This document shows positions 1 through 63,945 of a stretch of DNA of 64,000 nt, in pieces. Made by a program: the position numbers and the translations under genes. Source of the stretch: Pyronema omphalodes (lineage: Eukaryota > Ascomycota > Pezizomycetes > Pezizales > Pyronemataceae); the NCBI GenBank assembly GCA_024516155.1, contig JAJJXM010000094.1:62001-126000 (forward strand), written 5' to 3'. Every line of letters begins with the position of its first letter. The first letter of the stretch is position 1. The notes beneath the pieces are model-generated. The model ran no database searches. It saw nothing but the letters and a program-made list of their open reading frames with translations, and was not told the origin of the DNA.

Positions 1-690
1 AATCGTCCGAACAATGCAGGCACGAGAAGAGACTATGGATGGGATGGTGTAACTAAGGCCGAAGCGAGGGAATGCTACGATCGTATAGATTGATGCGTGA
101 GGTGGTTGTAATCGAGATACATACATTTGGATCTTCTAGAAGGAAGCTATATGCGTTCTATGGAATTCAGTGTGTTTGAAACCATGAATTTGATTCTGAA
201 CGACATGAGCAATGACAGAGAGTGATATAGAAACGTCCGAACAACTGTAAACAAAGGAAATACAATCAACAAATTGTTATAATCAACTACATACAGGGCA
301 TCAGCTTTAGTCGAATGATGCTTCATGAATAAACCCTAAAACCAACTTTATATTGCTTGGCATCACGTTGACGTTGCGTCACACGCTAGGCAGTCGGTCT
401 AATACCGATACAGTAAGAGTCTGTGATTTCTCATGAGCCATTAGCCGGTCGCGCAAACCCAAGCACATAGCGAGCCTGCGCGACACGCTCATCCCCACTT
501 TCTCTCTCACGAACCACTTTCTCACGGACCACTCCCTCGCTTCCTCAAAACCACTTTCTTGCTCGAGAAACATACCAAGAACCACGTTCTCTCTCACGAA
601 ACAGTTTCATTCGTACCGACCTGCACTTTTAGCAGCAACACTACAACTCCCATCTTGAACAAAAAAGCTGCCAGTGGCGACACCGCAAAA
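1..690 (+). promoter_or_regulatory. SDE2 upstream region and repetitive 5' leader
   Basis: No gene is seen in the first 690 bases. From about 340 to 690 the sequence is shared, diverged, with the regions ahead of all three decayed SDE2 copies (near 38950, 52850 reversed, and 58820). Shared landmarks are the block around 358-380 resembling GGCATCACGTTGACGTTGCG and the later block reading TCATGAGCCATTAGCCGG. From about 505 to 605 the leader contains degenerate repeats of the type CTCACGAACCAC / CTCAAGAAACA. The region probably holds the promoter and 5' UTR; no core element is certain. Confidence 0.5.
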
Positions 691-1506
691 ATGATCAACG
701 CATTCGTCACTACCTTTTCGGGTCTCCCCAACGTCAACCTCGTCCTTCCACCTTCCACTCCTCTCTCCGAGCTTTTCTCAGCTCTCTACACTCGCTTATC
801 AATCAGCGAGCACCCCAACCTCGTCCTCTCAACCGTTTCCGGTCAGCGACTCAGTCCCAGCTCGTCACCACTCAACTCCGTCACCAATGGCGATTATGTC
901 TGTCTCCGCCTTACCAGCCAACTCTGCGGAGGAAAGGGAGGTTTCGGATCACAGTTGCGCGCTGCAGGTGGTCGTATGAGCTCTCGTAAGAAAAGTCAAG
1001 AAAACTCCGACTCCTGCAGAAATCTCGATGGACGACGTCTCCGCACTGTCAAAGAAGCAAAGGCGCTTGCGGCACTTCTAGAAGTCAAACCGGAAATGGA
1101 TAAGAAACAGAAAGAGGCAGCAATTGCACGATGGAAGGAGGTTATTGAGGGAGCGAAGCGTCATCAAGAGGGTGGTGATAAGAAAAGATTTGACGATGTT
1201 GAATGGTTGGAGAGTTTGGAGGATACTACGGAGAGAACTAGGGAAGCATGCTTGGTTGGATTAAAGGCATTGGGATTGGTTGCGGAAGATAGCTCTGGTG
1301 AAAGCTCGGGCGATGAAGGAGAGGATATGGAAGACCCTACGGATGTTAAGGGCAAGAAACCTGTATTAAGTCGGATTAGCGAAATCCAGGAGAAGAAGCC
1401 GGTCGTTGTACGAAAATTTGCCGGTTGGGAAGAGGAGGATGAGAGCAGCGATGAAAGCAACGATGAGGAGGAAGAGGAGGAGGAGGACGAGAAGGAGAGG
1501 GCTTGA
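691..1506 (+). CDS. sde2: Sde2 family telomere/splicing protein (intact copy)
   Basis: A single-exon gene of 271 codons. The N-terminal ~80 residues form the Sde2 ubiquitin-like fold and end in the hallmark CGGKGGFGSQLRAAGGRM (GGKGG at residues 80-84). In fission yeast, deubiquitinases cut after the GG and the freed Lys-Gly-Gly C-terminal fragment joins the spliceosome to promote excision of selected introns; Sde2 also supports telomeric silencing and genome stability. The middle part (KKQKEAAIARWKEVIEG, near residue 140) is the conserved helical Sde2 body, and the tail is a very acidic Glu/Asp/Ser tract. An in-frame ATG at 559 would add 44 residues, but the ubiquitin-like domain starts at MINAF (691), and the extension lies in repetitive leader, so 691 is preferred. 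Three decayed relatives lie at 39, 52 and 59 kb. Confidence 0.93.
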   Translation: MINAFVTTFSGLPNVNLVLPPSTPLSELFSALYTRLSISEHPNLVLSTVSGQRLSPSSSPLNSVTNGDYVCLRLTSQLCGGKGGFGSQLRAAGGRMSSRKKSQENSDSCRNLDGRRLRTVKEAKALAALLEVKPEMDKKQKEAAIARWKEVIEGAKRHQEGGDKKRFDDVEWLESLEDTTERTREACLVGLKALGLVAEDSSGESSGDEGEDMEDPTDVKGKKPVLSRISEIQEKKPVVVRKFAGWEEEDESSDESNDEEEEEEEDEKERA

Positions 1507-20920: not shown

Positions 20921-23900
20921 TCAACATCTAATTTCTTCTTCTTCTTCTGCTGCTGTTTCTTCTTCCCCCAATCCCTTCTCCACCACCACCGGCTTAGCAA
21001 TCTGCATAGCCAATATCGCATCCATCTTTCTATGCAACTCCTCAATCTCCAACCTTAACCGTCTTAATTCCTCTGTCGACGTAGACTGTGTAGACTGTGT
21101 AGACTGTGTAGACTGTGTAGACTGTGTAGACAGTCCAGCCTGCCCAGCAACATTCTCCTCCCCCCCAAACCGTTGATAAGAAACAGGAGCTCTAATATCT
21201 CGTTGCGGTATCTGTAAACCTCTAGAATCACCGTGATGGTTCCTTGTAGATGGAGATGGGGTGATGCAGCTTTCGTGATGTGGCATGTTTTGTTGTTCTG
21301 ATGGTCTTGTACTGGTTGTACTACTGCCGGTACCAGCACCGTGATGCTGATGTTGGTGTTGGTGTTGATGTTGGTGGGTTACGGTAGTAGTAGCAGTAGC
21401 AGTAGCAGTAGTAGTTCCATCCCCAGTAGCAGTACCAATACCATCCCCACTACCACTACCACCACCAGCAGCACCAAGCATACAATCCACATCTCCCCCC
21501 CGCTGCGAAACACCAGCAACACCAGGAACACCAGCAGCATACAACCCCCCACCAACTCCCAATCCCAATCTACTCCCCGCCAACTGTAATCTTCTCGAAT
21601 TCCAACCTGTATTATTACTCCTAGTAAATAATGATATTCCCAGACCTGCGTTGCTGTTGATATTGCCGCTGCTGATGCCGATGTTGCTGCTGCCGATGTT
21701 GCCGCTGTTGCTGTTGTTGATGTTGCCGCTGCTGATGCCGATGTTGCCGCTGTTGATGAGCTGGTGATGGTGGTATGGAGCACCGAGATATGTAACCCCG
21801 AGCTTTTTGTCGGTGAGGCCGTTGGAGGGTCCCCAGCCGGTGCTGCGGGGTTGTTGCTGCAGTCGCTCGAAGATTATGATCGTGTAGGCCTGGGATGGGG
21901 TTAGATGGGGTTTGTGGGGGTTTGTGGGGGTGATGGGGGGTGAAGGGGGGGGGGGGGGGAATAGGGAGGCGGGGTGAGGCGGGGGGGGTGAGGCGGGTGT
22001 ATAGCATAGCATAGGATACAGATGAGGGAGAAGTGATAACTTTTTCTTCGCTGCATGTGTTTTGGGTACTTTGGGCATGGGTATAGGCATGGCTATAAGC
22101 AAGCTTTCGTACGCAATAAACGCTTGCTCGGGTGTAGTGTGCGGGCGCATGCGGGCGTGTGAGAGTGTATGAAGGGATAGGAGGTGCTATAGTGCTAGAC
22201 TGTAATAGTCCGGTTCTCAAGAAAAATCAAGAAAAATCAAGAAAAAAAAAATACTGAGGAGTTACATACCAATCCACAATGCGATAATTTCAATAGCATG
22301 ATTCTCCCTATATTTGATAAAGCAAACAAAAGGTTAGATTGGATACCGATTGATGGTAAAATTAAAGAAATAGAAGAAATTGATGAAGAAATGAAGAAAT
22401 GATTCATGTTTTTTTTTTTTTTTACGGGGAGGATATTTTAGGAAGTTTTTTTGGGGGGCGGATATTTCAGGAAGGGTTTTATGAGGAAGTATTTTCTCGG
22501 GAAGTATTTTTGGGATAGTACTTACATTTTCTAATTCTCGAAGAACTAAGAAACAATCGGAACGGACGTAACAAAATCAACGGTAATAGATTCTACAAAA
22601 AAAATATATGAAACCGACGGTCAAATATAATTAGCCAATATCCCCTTTCAAGACCCGATCGTTCTTTTCAGGGTAATGTTCTCAGGGTATTTCAAGTTGA
22701 ATTGAGATAAAATGGAGTAATGAGGGCAAGAGGGGTGCACTTACAAGCGGCGGATAATATACTACTAATCTACTACTTGATGACGCTTCAAGAACCATAA
22801 TCGAAAACCTTTGATGGCAGAATATATCATGTTAGTTGTTCATTTTTAACAAGAATAGAAAAAAATGAAATGAAATGTTGATGCATCATGGCTTGTTATG
22901 CGGTTGTGGCTGTAGTTGCGGTTGTAGTTGTGGTTGTAGTTACGGAAGAAAAGAAGGAGGGCCTTACATGAATAAATATTCCTCCCTAAATACGAAAGAT
23001 CAGAATTAGTCAAAGCCCTCTTCGATGAAAATTTATTTGATTGATGAAGGTAAAGGTGAAGGTGAAGGTGAAGGTGAAGGTGAAGACGAAGGTAATTTGT
23101 GGGTAGGTATCCGGCTCAAAACACCTAACATACCTAGCATTCGACAGCATCTAATACACGTATCCTATTAGCATATATTCCTAATCCCCAATCTTCAACC
23201 GCCCCCCCCCCCCCCCTTCCCCAAAAACCAGAAAGCCAGAAAACCAGAAAGCCAGAAAGCCAGAAAGCCAGAAAACCAGAAAGCCAGAAAGCCAGAAAAC
23301 CAGAAAACCAGAAAGCCAGAAAACCAGAAAACCAGAAAACCAGAAAGCCAGAAAACCAGAAAGCCAGAAAACCAGAAAGCCAGAAAACCAGAAAGCCAGA
23401 AAACCAGAAAGCCAGAAAACCAGAAACAAAAAATCACAAGGCAACTCACAGTAGTAAGACTATTCGACAACAAACTAATCAACGAAGTAATCAAAAGGAT
23501 ATTCGTAATAGTAACAAATATCTACCCTCTCTATCATCAGCTTTGCTCCCCCAATCAAAAAAACATAACGGTTATTTCGCTAGGATGATCAATAACATAC
23601 CAACATCAAAGGCGGTCCCAAAATCGGGGATATCTATAAATTTTCCGAACGCATCAGTATCATTTCATCTTACCCCCCCCCCCCCCCCACAATCCCCAGA
23701 CTCCCAAGACTGGTGTAAAAGATCATGATAAGACATACCTCTCTCATAGCTTGCTATAAATCGATGGAAAATTGATTTGTTAGCTGGAAACGTGATGTGG
23801 GATTATGGATGGGGATGGGCATGGGGATGGACTTACGAATCCGACGGAACTCTGTTGTGTCCCGAGAGAAAAATAGAAAGAGTGGTTAGTAAGATACGAT

Positions 23901-26900
23901 GAGATGAGATGAGATGGGACGGGAAGTTATTTTGGATGGGTTGTAGCATAGAGATTATAGGATCATGGGATCATACCGAGCCGAAGAATACTATTGTAAT
24001 CGAAAAAATGGTTAGATTATTGATTCTAGGGTTCAAAAGACAAGATAGGAAGGGATAGGGATAGAATGAGAAGTGATGAAGGGCAGAAACTGGAGGAGGA
24101 AAGAGGACATACCACTAACAAGCATCCAGAACACATTCGCAAAAGACATTCGATCCCTTGCGAGTAACGAGAAGGTTGTAAGGAATCCTAGTGATTGGTG
24201 TTAGTTACTAGATCTTCCTGCTTACCGCTTCCTGCTTCCTGCTTCCTGCTTCCTGCTTCCTAATATCCAAAGCTCCCAAAGCTCCCAGAGTCCATGACAC
24301 CCGGGACCAATCCCTCTCTCACTCTCCCCCTCAATCTCTCAATCACCAGCAATCACCAACCACAATCACCACCACCAACAAGAGAGTCAAGAAAATTTCC
24401 CAACACATACCGAAATAAAGAATCACAATCTACCCACGATAACAAATACCAATTATCGATAATATTAGCTTTTCACAACTTTCCACAACTTTCCAACGCA
24501 GCAGCAGATATCATCCGACTTGATGATATATTTCCAGCTGGTGAATTTTGTGACTTTTCTATAGGTGTATAGAGCACTACATACCAAAACTAAGAATTTC
24601 AAAAACTATTTCACCAGAGGAAAAAAAAAGTATATCAGCATCCAGTATCCATTTTCTAGCGGGGGGAAGAGGGAAGAGGTGCGAGATTAAGTTAATTAAA
24701 GATAGAAGAAACAAGAAACCTACTTCTTTCGACATTTGTTTCAAGCAAGGGATTAAGACACCTAATGACGGGGTATATTGTTAGTATCGATATACAATAA
24801 ATACAACGGATTCAGCTACATAGCTACCAATAGCACCTTACTACGTACCGAAAAATGGGATTAGGGAAAGTAGTGAGAAGATCCTGGAAAGTAGGAGGGG
24901 GGTTTGTTAGCTCTTGATGGGATTGGATGAATTGGATGGAATGGGCAAGGTTTATGATTTACCTGGGGACGAGAAGTAATGCTTCAAGTGAAAGAATGTC
25001 GAATGCTGTGTCGGTGATTCCTTCGTTGTCTTCGACTACTCCGATTATTCCTGGGTTTTGTTAGTGGGTGTTGGGTTTGTTTTTTGGGGGTTCTATGATG
25101 TGTAGCCCGGGTGATGCACACCCTATCTCCCCCTCACTCCCACCTCCGCCCATGTGCCTCTCAGCACCCCCCCCCCCTCCCCCTTCCCCAAGATGCAAGA
25201 AAAGACTTACTATATATCAAAAAGACAACCCCGACGGAAATCATCATCATATCCAACCAACTCCAAACATTATTAAAAAAGATACCACTATCTCTCATGG
25301 AGTTAACACTATCAACCCCAAACGCAGCAAACATAACAATCAGAGCAATTTCCGCCTTCGTAATCCTATCCGGATTTCTTTCCACCAGCACGGCAAAATA
25401 AAACACCAACAACGCCGCAAAAAAAATCGCCTCAAAAGTCTTCTGATACTTAGGCACTCTCAATCTACAAAACGGATCGGCGGTTCTCTGATTCCAGAAG
25501 TGAGGATTCTTAGTAGCCTCCACATCCAACGTTTTCCAAAAACTAATACTCCCATCCCAAATCCCCGTAATAATCCTCTGTACGGGACGATGAGAAATAA
25601 ATTTCTTCGCATCTGCAAGAACTGCGATTTCTAGGGTGTTCATTCCTTCATATTGTTTTTTCCGATTACTTTCGATATCGGAGCTTGAGCCGGTACCGTG
25701 ACGAGTACCGCTTAGGAGGAAGGTGGTTTCTGTGATGGGGGTTTCATTGCTGTTGCTGTTGTCTTCTAGAACCGGAAGTGGGTGGCAGAGATATTGTAAG
25801 GCTTCTTGTGCGCTCAAGTTGCTGGTTAGGTCGCAGGCTACCATTTCGCAGGCTAGGGCTCGGGTTGATCCGATGGCGTCGGTGCCCAGGCTGAAGGTAC
25901 TGCCTTCTTCGTCGTAGGAGGCGAATTCGGCTCGGCACCAGCTGGGAGAGGGGGTTTGTTAGTAGGGGGTTTTTGGTTTGGAGGTTGGGGGGTATTGTGT
26001 ATGAAATGGATTTTGAGATCTCTGGGGAGGTGGGAATAGATATGTGTTGCTGGATGAAGGGAATATCTTGGTGATATTATGAGAATCATCGGGAATCACC
26101 AGTAGTTACTACCACCAGTCACTCCCGAGATCCTGCAAAGTGCCGAGAAACACCGGGTAGGCATGGATGGATGTATGAACCAACTCTCCGGGACTGACGT
26201 AAAGGAAAGAGAGGGGAAGAAAAGGCAATAAAAACAGTCCCGGGCATTATCCAAAGAAATCAAACCAAAGTAAAAGATGAGGTAAGTACTACAATAACAA
26301 TTCAAAAAAAAAAAAAAAAAAAACAAGAACCTACAGCAAAGCAGCAATAGTACAAGGATTATGACCTATATCAAAGTATCAATCAGCCCACATACCCCAA
26401 TTTATTTCATATCATTTCATATATCCACAAAAACCACTTACATTTATCAGTTAAATAATTCGCCAAAGTCGTTACCGCAATCTTATGTGCCGTTGTCGAG
26501 GAATGCGCACCGTTATCTATGTTTTCAATAACTGCGCATGTTATGTTAGTCTTGGATCCTTTTGCTGCGACGTTGCGATGATGACACAAGAAGCTTGGCA
26601 GAGGTAGTGAGTGTAATAGTGCTTCGAAGCTGCTTCGACTGCTTCGTTCAGACGGACAGACAGCAAAAGGAAGCGACCTCTACGCCCAGTCCAAACCTCG
26701 AGTAGCTATCATCCTGTGACATAACGTAACGAACAAGCCGAACCAGCAGACCGACCGACCGCCGACCGCAGCAACCAGCTGCCAGCAACCAGCAACCAGC
26801 AGCAGCAGCAGCAGCTATCCCATAGACTACCCGCAGGCATCTACAGCACAGTAGACAGTAGACAATAGAGTAGACTCTAGCCCGGGCGTCATGTCTTGTC

Positions 26901-27189
26901 TTGTCTCATCATGTCATATCAAGTCATGTCATAACTAGTCCAGACCAGCAGCCAGCAGCCAGCTGCATCTCCGCCCAGGAGCCATTTCGGAGGGGAGGAA
27001 AAAAAGTTACGTACAATAAGTCTTAAGCGTTTCACACAGATCCGCAAAGCTCATATCATCTTCAATAACGACCGGTATGTTTTGTTGCTGTGGCTGTGGT
27101 TCATCCGAGGTGGTGGTTCCATAGTCTGGTCTTGGACTTCGGGTTGCTGGTGTTGCGGGTTGGGTTCGTGTTGATGTTGATGGTGGCAT
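20921..27189 (-). CDS. yvc1: Yvc1-like TRP cation channel, about 21 exons with micro-exons
   Basis: Exons in transcript order (plus coordinates): 27015-27189, 26442-26531, 26335-26365, 25211-25941, 24963-25050, 24849-24883, 24724-24761, 24585-24605, 24411-24429, 24113-24187, 23977-23990, 23837-23851, 23739-23753, 23601-23633, 23450-23521, 23134-23150, 22968-22985, 22745-22808, 22526-22592, 22270-22307, 20921-21889. They sum to 2625 nt (874 codons plus stop) with every junction in phase and GT-AG. Ends may be off by a base in places. Family landmarks: RADPFCRLRVPKYQ-like segment, TAFDILSLEALLLVPR, CLKQMSKE, GFLTTFSLLARD, pore VFFGSS..GF (about residues 435-444), NILLITSLISLLSNSL, EASSSSRL, then a C-terminal coiled coil (EELRRLRLEIEELHRKM). 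Fungal Yvc1 releases vacuolar Ca2+. The last exon encodes Asn/Gly, His-Gln and STQ repeats. Eleven exons are under 40 nt, which is extreme for this group. Confidence 0.85.
23047..23096. repeat. GAAGGT hexamer array in TRP gene intron 16
   Basis: About seven copies of AAGGTG/GAAGGT, ending in slightly changed units. On the transcript strand this is a CACCTT pyrimidine-rich run between two micro-exons of 17 and 18 nt. Confidence 0.8.
23215..23430. repeat. CCAGAAAR 8-bp minisatellite inside TRP gene intron 15
   Basis: About 25 head-to-tail copies of an 8-base unit, CCAGAAAG or CCAGAAAA, in irregular alternation, next to C15 at 23202-23216. On the coding strand of the TRP gene it reads as TTTCTGGC/TTTTCTGG, a pyrimidine-rich tract close to the 3' part of the 299-nt intron 15. 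Open frames across it encode only FWLSGF-type repeats and are not genes. Confidence 0.9.
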
Positions 27190-51830: not shown

Positions 51831-52850
51831 TCAATGTCCAGTAATGATGCAAGTACTGTTGTCTAGTAATCGTCGCCCATGGACCCCTCTACAGCAGTCA
51901 AAATTTTCGTGGCCCTTTTCATGAGCATTTATACGACTGCCTGCTGTACATAACTGAGGATCTAATCCTCCCTTTCTCTCTCTCTCTCTCACACACCCCC
52001 CCCCCCCCCCCCCTTCCCCAGAGTTAGGTTGGAGGACGGAGGCAGATGTAACTGCTATTGGTGATGGAGTTGAGGGAGGATCCGGCCGGAGACGGTGAGG
52101 ATGCTTGTTGAGGGATAAGCGGGTGTAGAGGGATGTGAAAAGATCAGAGAGAGGTAAGTATGGAGGAAGGACTAACTTGATGTTGGGGAGATCTGGACAT
52201 GTGGTGATGAATGTGTTGATCATTTTTGGGGGTGTCGGTACTGGTGGCTTTTTTGTGGTGGTTGCTGAAAGGGATTGTTTGTGGAAAATAATGAAATGCG
52301 TAAGAGAAACGGTACTGCGGAGTAAAGCGTGCTGCTTGAGACACGACGTGGTTCTTGAGGTGTCGTTCTGGAGGTATAGTTCTCGGGAGAGCAAGTATTT
52401 GCTAGATTGTTCTTCTCAATAGAGTGTTACTTAAGGTGTGTTTCGTGAAAGAGGAAGTAGTTCTTCGCTGGTGTTTCTCGAGATTGAGAGATAGTTTCTT
52501 AAGGTACGTTGGTTGAGCGAGGAAGTAGTTCTTCAATTGTGTTTCTCCAGAGGTCGTTTCTTAAAATATTTTCCGCGAATCCAGAGAACGTGTTCCGTTA
52601 GAGATTAGCCTGTCAGAGAAAATGTGGAAACGAGAGTGCTGCGCAGGCTCGCTATAAGTTGTATTGCGCGCGACTGGCTAATGGCTCATGAGATATCACA
52701 CTTACTTGCTGCATAGGACTATTGGGATTACATAGGGCAATTGCTTGGGGTTCCCGCATATGCCTTGAAGGCCTCGAACTGTGTATCATTAAAAATCAAA
52801 AATTAAAGCAATTGCTTAGGGTTTAACGCAACGTCAACCTGATGCCGAAA
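51831..52850 (-). pseudogene. Decayed SDE2 copy 2
   Basis: Minus strand. The ubiquitin-like start is preserved (MINTFITTCPDLPNIKLVLP from 52223) and the frame stays open to 51831, but the region that should hold GG-KGG is replaced by a simple-sequence tract (C18 at 51996-52013 next to a CT run), so translation reads poly-Gly then RERERKGG. Homology resumes as LDPQLCTAGSRINAHEKGHE and stops about 20 residues later; the Sde2 helical body and acidic tail are missing. The leader (52400-52640) keeps the shared repeats and the block near 52830. Not expected to give functional Sde2, but a ubiquitin-like fragment could be translated. Confidence 0.85.
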
Positions 52851-62128: not shown

Positions 62129-63211
62129 ATGGATCCGTTCCGATTGCAGGAGCTGAGCGAGGTCATCGAAAGGGAAGCAACCGGTCCAGCGAGCCCAGTA
62201 ACCCCCGAGCACCGATCCCGCCCGCAGACTCCGGATTCACCGGGACCAGCACAGATCCCCGCGGACCTAGAATCACCAATGGCCTCCCAACAAGGAACGA
62301 GTGGTATGACACCACCCTCGGTCGTGATGACCCAGGAACAGCTCCAGCAATTGTTCCAACAACTCACCTATCGCCCCTCCCTGACCAGTAATCCCAAGGT
62401 CGAGGACGACGAACTGTATCACGGCGAGAGGACGAAGCTTCGGGCTTTCCTGACTCAGTGCGAGTTGAAGTTCAACCGTGAACCGAACAGGTTCGACAGT
62501 GACATTAAGAGGGTTAATTACGCCAGTTCGCGGTGGCGGGGAAATGCGTGGTCATGGATTGAGCCCTCCATCGAGAAGGGAAGGAGCACGTATACCACCT
62601 GGGAGGCATTCAAGACTGCCGTCTCGAGGGAATTTGGAGAGGCGGACTCAAGGGAGGTGGCGAGAAGGGAATTCAAGAATGTCCGTCAAGGAAATCGGTC
62701 CGCTGCAGCGTACTGGGCCGAATTCCAGAGAATTATCGCGGACCTGCATTATAACGACGAATTCTATATTGATCAGCTCAGCGATGGACTTCATGTGGAC
62801 GTGCAAAGACAACTCGCCATCCTCGAGACCCGTCCAACGAAGATAATCGACTTCGCAAACAAAGCACTTGCGTTGGACAACCGGCTGTTCAATTTCCGGA
62901 CTCTGCGAAACCGATATGAGCCCCAGTACCAGAATTTCCATCCGAAGAACGGCCACCATGGGTCGACCTTTTCGGAACCCGAACCAATGGAGCTTGATGC
63001 CACCCGGAGCGGCAGGCCTAGGGATAGGAACGAGGAAGAGAAACGACGTAAAAACAATGAATGCTTCAACTGCGGAAAAACGGGCCACTACGCCGCAAAA
63101 TGTCCCCACAAGAAACCAATGGGGGAACGAAGGACGTACCGGGCGGCAGCAGCCAACATTGACGAGGAACCAGTGGATGAAAGGACGGGACAAGAGGATC
63201 CCCAGGAGTAA
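62129..63211 (+). CDS. gag: Gag polyprotein of gypsy-type retrotransposon
   Basis: An open frame of 360 residues. The Retrotrans_gag domain spans about residues 90-240 (YHGERTKLRAFLTQCELKF, WRGNAWSWIEP, YWAEFQRIIADLHY, IDQLSDGLH). A zinc knuckle CFNCGKTGHYAAKCPHK (CX2CX4HX4C) lies near residue 310. The N-terminal 80 residues are Pro/Gln-rich and disordered. The protein would form the virus-like particle and bind element RNA. It ends in TAA at 63209-63211; the pol frame (-1) is already open at this point. The frame is undamaged, suggesting recent activity. Confidence 0.92.
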   Translation: MDPFRLQELSEVIEREATGPASPVTPEHRSRPQTPDSPGPAQIPADLESPMASQQGTSGMTPPSVVMTQEQLQQLFQQLTYRPSLTSNPKVEDDELYHGERTKLRAFLTQCELKFNREPNRFDSDIKRVNYASSRWRGNAWSWIEPSIEKGRSTYTTWEAFKTAVSREFGEADSREVARREFKNVRQGNRSAAAYWAEFQRIIADLHYNDEFYIDQLSDGLHVDVQRQLAILETRPTKIIDFANKALALDNRLFNFRTLRNRYEPQYQNFHPKNGHHGSTFSEPEPMELDATRSGRPRDRNEEEKRRKNNECFNCGKTGHYAAKCPHKKPMGERRTYRAAAANIDEEPVDERTGQEDPQE

Positions 63212-63276
63212 AAGAACAAGGTGGACTACTGGGGACAAAGAGTTCCGCCGAACCAGACAATCCGGAACCAGCCTAC

Positions 63277-63945
63277 ATGATATCAAGCGTAGGGCCATAC
63301 CGACGAGACGAAAAGATCATATTAGAAGTAGTAATAAAAGGAAAAGACAATCAAGAACACACCACGACGGCCATGGTGGACTGTGGAGCGACGGAGAACT
63401 TCATCGATAAGGAATATGTGGAAAGGGTGGGGATCCCGTTGAAAAAGAAGGACGTCCTACGAAGGGTGTTGGCAGTGGACGGACGAGAGATAGCTAGTGG
63501 ACCAGTCACCCACGAAGCTATGGTTAGACTACAGATCAACAACTATCAGGAGGATATTCGACTGCATTGTATCGCGATTGGAAACTCACCTATCATTGTG
63601 GGGCTTCTATGGCTCCGGACGCACAACCCCAGTATCGACTGGAACGAGGCAAGAGTTACGTTCGACTCGGCGCATTGTGCCAAGAGGTGCCTAGAGACCT
63701 CGACCTCACCTCACGCGACCACGGTAACGGAAGACGACACTATTCAACAATATCAACTGGACACTGCGCAGGCCGCAGCCAGGGAAGAAAGAATATGCGA
63801 AGCAAGATGGGAAGAGAGGATGGAAACCTGGGGCGATCCAACGAGAAAGAAGAAACAAGAAGATCATCCGTGGGGAAGAAGGATCAAAAGGGACCAGGAA
63901 AAGGAGGGGGAAGAGTGTAACGGCGAACAAGGGAGAGATAGCTGA
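63277..63945 (+). CDS. pol: Pol start: retropepsin-like aspartic protease region
   Basis: First ATG of the pol frame at 63277; the frame is open further upstream, overlapping the end of gag, so expression by -1 frameshifting is possible. The protease core is MVDCGATENFIDKEYVERVG (active-site D-C-G form of D[ST]G) with a flap/hydrophobic loop and SPIIVGLLWLRTHNPSIDW, typical for gypsy proteases. The frame ends at 63945 after a lysine/glutamate-rich stretch. The reading frame that stays open to the window edge (...EGSSQLFTLEFNED) is a different one, so either there is a frameshift mutation near 63900-63930 or translation shifts. Reverse transcriptase and integrase would lie beyond the window. 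Confidence 0.8.
   Translation: MISSVGPYRRDEKIILEVVIKGKDNQEHTTTAMVDCGATENFIDKEYVERVGIPLKKKDVLRRVLAVDGREIASGPVTHEAMVRLQINNYQEDIRLHCIAIGNSPIIVGLLWLRTHNPSIDWNEARVTFDSAHCAKRCLETSTSPHATTVTEDDTIQQYQLDTAQAAAREERICEARWEERMETWGDPTRKKKQEDHPWGRRIKRDQEKEGEECNGEQGRDS

Follow-up and report, generated by a model that had tools for sequence, protein, structure and literature searches.

The window analysed here, a 64,000-nucleotide stretch of the Pyronema omphalodes genome (contig JAJJXM010000094.1, positions 62,001 to 126,000), contains on its minus strand (27189-20921) a fungal TRP channel gene that is divided into 21 exons. We consider it probable that this is a working TRP-type cation channel gene, found once in the genome, whose 20 introns are of the ordinary spliceosomal type and whose micro-exon structure is mainly inherited. 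The exons join into a single open frame of 874 codons plus the stop codon (see the table below); ten of the 21 are no longer than 36 nucleotides (14-35 nucleotides) and 12 no longer than 51. The introns are 76-483 nucleotides long, with a median of 150. GT-AG borders are present in all 20 of them, GTRNGT donors in 17 (compared with 119 of the 3589 other GTs on the same strand), and each contains a CTRAY branch-site candidate starting 14-42 nucleotides before the intron end, a motif that precedes other AGs at this distance in 24 of 215 cases within the gene span and in 278 of 3852 cases on the strand. The original prediction, made from the letters of the window, had listed 15 exon lengths, about 20 introns with GT and AG, and a joined frame without a stop; all of this is borne out, and the 15 lengths are those of exons 6-20 of the 21-exon model (24883-22270). 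The range given there for the micro-exon run has to be extended by one exon of 31 nucleotides (exon 3) further upstream, and the description of the exons as in-phase is accurate for the joined frame, which stays open, and inaccurate for the exon lengths, which are multiples of three in only 7 of the 16 exons from 5 to 20.

The best protein match of the product is a deposited P. omphalodes hypothetical protein, BZA77DRAFT_328871 (hereinafter P0001), which we take to be the deposited annotation of this locus, in other words another gene prediction from this very DNA and not an independent sequence. It coincides with the gene model letter for letter over 517 residues, covering exons 1-18 and hence 17 introns, and then departs from it; by eye, its tail beyond exon 18 corresponds to the beginning of intron 18. 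When the C-terminal part of the product was used as a query, no other Pyronema model spanning exons 19-21 was found.

The micro-exon chain was also recovered by a blind scan whose only criteria were a relaxed donor pattern (GTRNG), the CTRAY and AG motifs, limits on length and continuity of the joined frame; protein similarity was not used. The sample comprised the window and 200 kilobases (kb) of another contig, C112, altogether 264 kb on both strands or 0.4% of the genome, so that the scan does not show the TRP channel gene to be unique genome-wide. The window yielded exactly one chain of at least three exons (24883-22269), namely the 15 exons of the original prediction in the same order. 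The entire sample yielded 21 such chains, 15 of three exons, three of four, two of five and one of fifteen. As a control, the 264 kb were resampled 30 times with a second-order Markov model; the longest chain in any one resampling had 5 to 10 exons, and the mean numbers of chains with three, four and five exons (18.8, 5.6 and 1.9) roughly equalled or exceeded those of the real sequence, which places the other 20 chains at chance level. The 15-exon chain is real and stands alone in this sample.

The precomputed annotation of P0001 includes PF23190, PF00520 and PF23317, which we take to be the LHD_TRPY1, ion-transport and YVC1-like C-terminal domains, respectively; a 227-residue frame inside exon 4 weakly matches PF23190 as well, below the cut-off. 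In the AlphaFold2 model of P0001 (mean predicted local distance difference test score 78.5), six core helices, a pore helix with its loop and a long S6/TRP helix are seen (the helix names are our own), and the best Foldseek match of this model is TRPY1 (6whg; E-value 4.4e-12, template modelling score 0.53). Both the domains and the six-helix core identify the product as a fungal TRP channel of the TRPY/TRPF kind. The original prediction called the gene Yvc1-like, which is right as regards the family and wrong if read as orthology: in comparison with 6whg, a 280-residue piece encoded by another gene, on contig C168 (1423-2586, minus strand), matches with an E-value of 4.6e-71 as against 2.8e-12 for 597 residues of the micro-exon product. 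The candidate orthology of the micro-exon gene with Yvc1/TRPY1 was rejected on these grounds; it is a paralogue, and the C168 gene is the likely true Yvc1 orthologue of P. omphalodes. In the region matching residues 194-516, the C168 gene has one intron, as judged from alignment and reading. A third TRP paralogue, on C112 (1400-3350, plus strand), has about seven introns by hand reading, three of which lie about 5-20 nucleotides off junctions 4, 5/6 and 16 of the micro-exon gene and a fourth near junction 12; these might reflect either intron sliding or coincidence. No other close copy of the micro-exon gene was found in the searches made, which detected only divergent paralogues elsewhere in the genome.

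The micro-exon region is well conserved. In the alignment of residues 342-552, six of nine Pezizomycete homologues match the product gap-free, with 65-79% identity, and the remaining three lack 4, 6 and 9 residues (the nine do not include P0001, which represents this gene itself, or the truncated model P0011). The identity among Pezizomycetes reaches 87-97% in exons 11, 14, 15 and 17; in other fungi, it is 17% in exon 13 and 33% in exon 16. When the exons are projected on the predicted structure, three introns fall within S5 (residues 386-418) and four within the S6/TRP helix (455-506), so that the exon borders, as far as the model goes, do not follow structural modules. The original prediction had the pore built from a 14-nucleotide and a 15-nucleotide exon. 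The filter, VFFGS, is indeed encoded by the 14-nucleotide exon, whereas the predicted pore helix (425-436) is located on the 75-nucleotide exon and the two 15-nucleotide exons encode the stretch that follows the filter.

Special exon definition or recursive splicing had been proposed to account for such short exons. None of the 20 exon starts reads GTRNG (three begin with GT and read GTCATA, GTGTCT and GTTTTC), no donor comes immediately after an acceptor, and each intron carries a full set of splice signals of its own; recursive splicing was rejected on this basis. Exons of 14-19 nucleotides are too short for exon definition, and in fungi with short introns intron definition is the expected mode. 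Since each intron has its own donor, branch-site candidate and acceptor and there is no recursive donor, ordinary intron definition should suffice, and no special mechanism appears to be needed for the micro-exons. Each intron would be recognised across itself, with donor and branch site bridged as in yeast, and exon length would hardly matter. In worms, the inclusion of micro-exons has been reported to depend on PRP-40, which is proposed to act by intron definition, that is, in the yeast mode (PMC8378409). The product would be an intracellular calcium-permeable channel like its relatives.

The age of the junctions was assessed from the protein models deposited for other fungi, in which breaks were taken as marks of introns mishandled by gene callers. 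The comparison included 138 proteins (120 listed out of 498 matches and 18 further ones out of 28) and automatically yielded 34 breaks between residues 335 and 556, or 33 without Pyronema's own. A break was counted at a junction if its edge fell within 0.67 residue, and the control was the junction set shifted 662 times; loop-length variation and chance alignments of one protein, P0131, were kept in the counts, and P0121 (67% identical) was counted with the Pezizomycetes. In this class, six of the eight breaks fall at Pyronema junctions, namely 4, 5, 15, 16 and 17, compared with a shift mean of 1.5 and with 4 of 662 shifts that score as high. The Rhizina model lacks exactly EEYLFM, the product of the 18-nucleotide exon 17; Kalaharituber shows a break at junction 15, the gap in Tirmania ends at junction 17, the Peziza break is at junction 5, and P0121 has breaks at junctions 4 and 5. 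The two misses are a break inside exon 11 in Kalaharituber and one in Wilcoxina, where the model by eye departs from the family right after junction 5 and the automatic method placed the break at 379. Given that the breaks in these Pezizomycete models coincide with the same junctions, we conclude that part of the structure, namely junctions 4, 5 and 15-17, probably predates Pyronema.

Some breaks outside the Pezizomycetes point to still older junctions. In Xylogone, an insertion of 17 residues (V to Q) sits precisely at junction 18, where P0135 departs from the family with V-R; Caloplaca departs at junction 12 with V-S, and Seirophora and P0134 at junction 4 with S-E-S-S. The residues with which these departures begin, S-E-S, V-S, V-K or V-R, are those that translation running on into GTRNGT in the proper phase would produce, and junctions 4, 18 and perhaps 12 may predate the Pezizomycetes. 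As a separate observation, the models of Pyronema, Xylogone and P0135 all read on at junction 18 (the position of intron 18 of the present gene, 22593-22744, minus strand), which could represent either genuine retention of an intron or an annotation error common to them.

A recent burst of intron gain confined to the Pyronema lineage, possibly via introner-like elements, is the explanation that was originally put forward, with a comparison to Helotiales, an order to which the source, a member of Pezizales, does not belong. It could draw on the average of 1.83 introns per kb reported for Pyronema confluens (PMC3778014) and on the lack of any other chain above chance in the 264 kb. The breaks at junctions 4, 5, 15, 16 and 17 in other Pezizomycetes speak against recent gain, and so do the introns themselves. 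In alignments of the introns to one another, 6 of 190 pairs score above the shuffled maximum (13.5; six shuffled sets); five of these lie in G-rich, C-rich or T-rich stretches, and the sixth pair is introns 3 and 4. A search of the genome DNA with 22200-24980, 25942-27014 and 21890-22270 (introns 1-3 and 5-20, with intron 4 not searched and common words skipped) produced short matches only, mostly at simple repeats, above all at a tandem array in intron 15. No introner-like introns were found in these comparisons, which fall short of proof, and this origin was rejected because the similarity of the introns to one another and to other loci does not go beyond simple repeats and tracts of low complexity; a recent burst is, in our judgment, very improbable. 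Even less credence is due to the idea that the copy is decayed and no longer functional, or that the splice model is wrong: the deposited model does stop inside intron 18, but the open joined frame, the complete splice signals, the gap-free conserved product, the blind recovery of the chain and the failure to find another copy make this explanation hardly tenable.

The choice between inheritance and gain at an earlier stage is less clear-cut. Over the whole gene, intron density is 7.6 per kb, and over exons 5-20 it is 27 per kb (17 introns in 629 nucleotides); the values reported for comparison are 2.49 per kb in Tuber melanosporum (over 747 genes; PMC3778014) and, in a published reconstruction, 7.6 per kb in the fungal ancestor and 0.98 per kb in the Pezizomycotina ancestor (PMC8476143). 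An old burst of intron gain in the TRP channel gene in the Pezizomycetes stem, inherited by its genera and spliced in the ordinary manner, is a possible, if rather doubtful, alternative. It would account for a channel core denser in introns than even the reconstructed fungal ancestor and far denser than that of Pezizomycotina, for the fact that, among the counted breaks, junctions 5 and 15-17 are marked only in Pezizomycetes, for the C112 and C168 paralogues without a clear common position, and for the four TRPF genes of Colletotrichum graminicola, each described with four exons (PMC4928787); it has to contend with the absence of a trace of a mobile source or introner-like similarity, and with isolated breaks in non-Pezizomycete fungi (junctions 4, 12 and 18), which look like retained introns. 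Retention fits the old junctions and the intron-rich ancestor, whereas the local density and the paralogues' fewer introns fit gain. We favour retention by a slight edge to which we do not attach much weight. Under retention, part of the micro-exon structure would have been in place before the sampled Pezizomycetes split, the introns at junctions 4, 18 and perhaps 12 might be older, and this gene would have preserved, in Pezizomycetes, a high density of old introns most of which disappeared in Leotiomyceta.

Several observations weigh against this preferred reading. The contrast between 27 introns per kb in exons 5-20 and 0.98 per kb in the Pezizomycotina ancestor speaks for some gain, and hand reading counted no intron position clearly common with the C112 and C168 paralogues. 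A search of genome contigs and viral contigs for orthologous DNA confirmed no relative, and therefore the intron positions elsewhere are inferred only from breaks in deposited proteins, which are indirect marks and come from the best listed matches only. In fungi other than Pezizomycetes, 5 of 25 breaks are at junctions (4, 12 and 18), with a shift mean of 3.9 and 229 of 662 shifts as high; for all fungi, 11 of 33 (shift mean 5.4, 44 of 662 as high) is borderline. Diplocarpon rosae (P0101) has a similar-looking insertion at residue 503, where there is no Pyronema junction. Finally, the support for exons 19-21 consists of homology and splice signals. It is also conceivable, if distinctly improbable, that the pore and TRP-helix micro-exons are an old splicing device of cup fungi, in which in-frame skipping, of the kind seen in the Rhizina model, and intron retention at junction 18 would yield channel subunits whose gating parts are changed or absent; such a role would protect the introns from loss.

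Table. Exons of the Pyronema omphalodes TRP channel gene and a repeat array within it (positions in the window)
Feature	Position	Strand	Evidence and remarks
Exon 1, 175 nt, start codon	27015..27189	-	gene model; within deposited protein P0001
Exon 2, 90 nt	26442..26531	-	gene model; P0001
Exon 3, 31 nt, micro-exon outside the range of the original prediction	26335..26365	-	gene model; P0001
Exon 4, 731 nt, linker domain and start of channel core	25211..25941	-	gene model; P0001; sub-cut-off PF23190 match
Exon 5, 88 nt	24963..25050	-	gene model; P0001
Exon 6, 35 nt	24849..24883	-	gene model; P0001; blind chain scan
Exon 7, 38 nt	24724..24761	-	gene model; P0001; blind chain scan
Exon 8, 21 nt, in predicted S5	24585..24605	-	gene model; P0001; blind chain scan; predicted-structure helix
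Exon 9, 19 nt, in predicted S5	24411..24429	-	gene model; P0001; blind chain scan; predicted-structure helix
Exon 10, 75 nt, end of predicted S5 and pore helix	24113..24187	-	gene model; P0001; blind chain scan; predicted-structure helix
Exon 11, 14 nt, filter VFFGS	23977..23990	-	gene model; P0001; blind chain scan
Exon 12, 15 nt, SSVGF	23837..23851	-	gene model; P0001; blind chain scan
Exon 13, 15 nt, QAMRE	23739..23753	-	gene model; P0001; blind chain scan
Exon 14, 33 nt	23601..23633	-	gene model; P0001; blind chain scan
Exon 15, 72 nt, predicted S6	23450..23521	-	gene model; P0001; blind chain scan
Exon 16, 17 nt	23134..23150	-	gene model; P0001; blind chain scan
Exon 17, 18 nt, stretch absent from Rhizina model	22968..22985	-	gene model; P0001; blind chain scan
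Exon 18, 64 nt; deposited model continues into intron 18, then stops	22745..22808	-	gene model; P0001; blind chain scan
Exon 19, 67 nt, not in deposited model	22526..22592	-	gene model; blind chain scan; homology
Exon 20, 38 nt, not in deposited model	22270..22307	-	gene model; blind chain scan; homology
Exon 21, 969 nt, C-terminal tail and stop codon, not in deposited model	20921..21889	-	gene model; first residues align to family
Tandem array in intron 15, 8/16-base units, 203 bases	23224..23426	.	similar stretches at several other genome places

Elsewhere in the window, a gene for the splicing regulator Sde2 (559-1506, plus strand) is recognised by the Pfam SDE2 and Sde2 N-terminal ubiquitin domains. 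About 50 kb away from it, an open reading frame (51831-52394, minus strand) has a start that by eye resembles Sde2 and is possibly a truncated duplicate. Retrotransposon gag and aspartyl-protease reading frames are located near the window end (62129-63945, plus strand).

With 27 introns per kb and exons of 14-15 nucleotides, the channel core lends itself to testing whether intron definition alone can support splicing, and the locus could allow old introns that were retained to be distinguished from introns gained within one gene. The breaks at junctions in the protein models also suggest why gene callers truncate the TRP channel in several fungi. A literature search of titles and abstracts found no paper on the structure of this gene.

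In fold and domains, the product is like TRPY1/Yvc1, the gene being a paralogue and not an orthologue, and like CgTRPF1-4 of Colletotrichum graminicola, from whose genes it differs in having 21 exons. Runs of very short exons that form much of the product are also characteristic of the micro-exon genes of schistosomes, where the exons are mostly symmetric; here, 7 of 16 core exons are multiples of three, and that symmetry is lacking. Among fungi, the P450 genes of Phanerochaete chrysosporium contain micro-exons as well, the shortest reported being 6 base pairs, but these are found in many genes of a basidiomycete, whereas here ten exons of at most 36 nucleotides are concentrated in one channel gene of an ascomycete (PMC1184071). 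The lipS gene of Dactylellina haptotyla, a different gene in an early-diverging filamentous ascomycete class, is described as having more than 10 introns and two exons of 3 nucleotides, and P. omphalodes as having lost all but one intron in lipS (PMC5639578). Xlr2 of Trichoderma virens, also a filamentous ascomycete, is a transcription factor gene for which a single, regulated micro-exon is reported (PMC11121469). Compared with these systems, the TRP channel gene of P. omphalodes represents a known type of gene taken to an extreme and not a new splicing mechanism.

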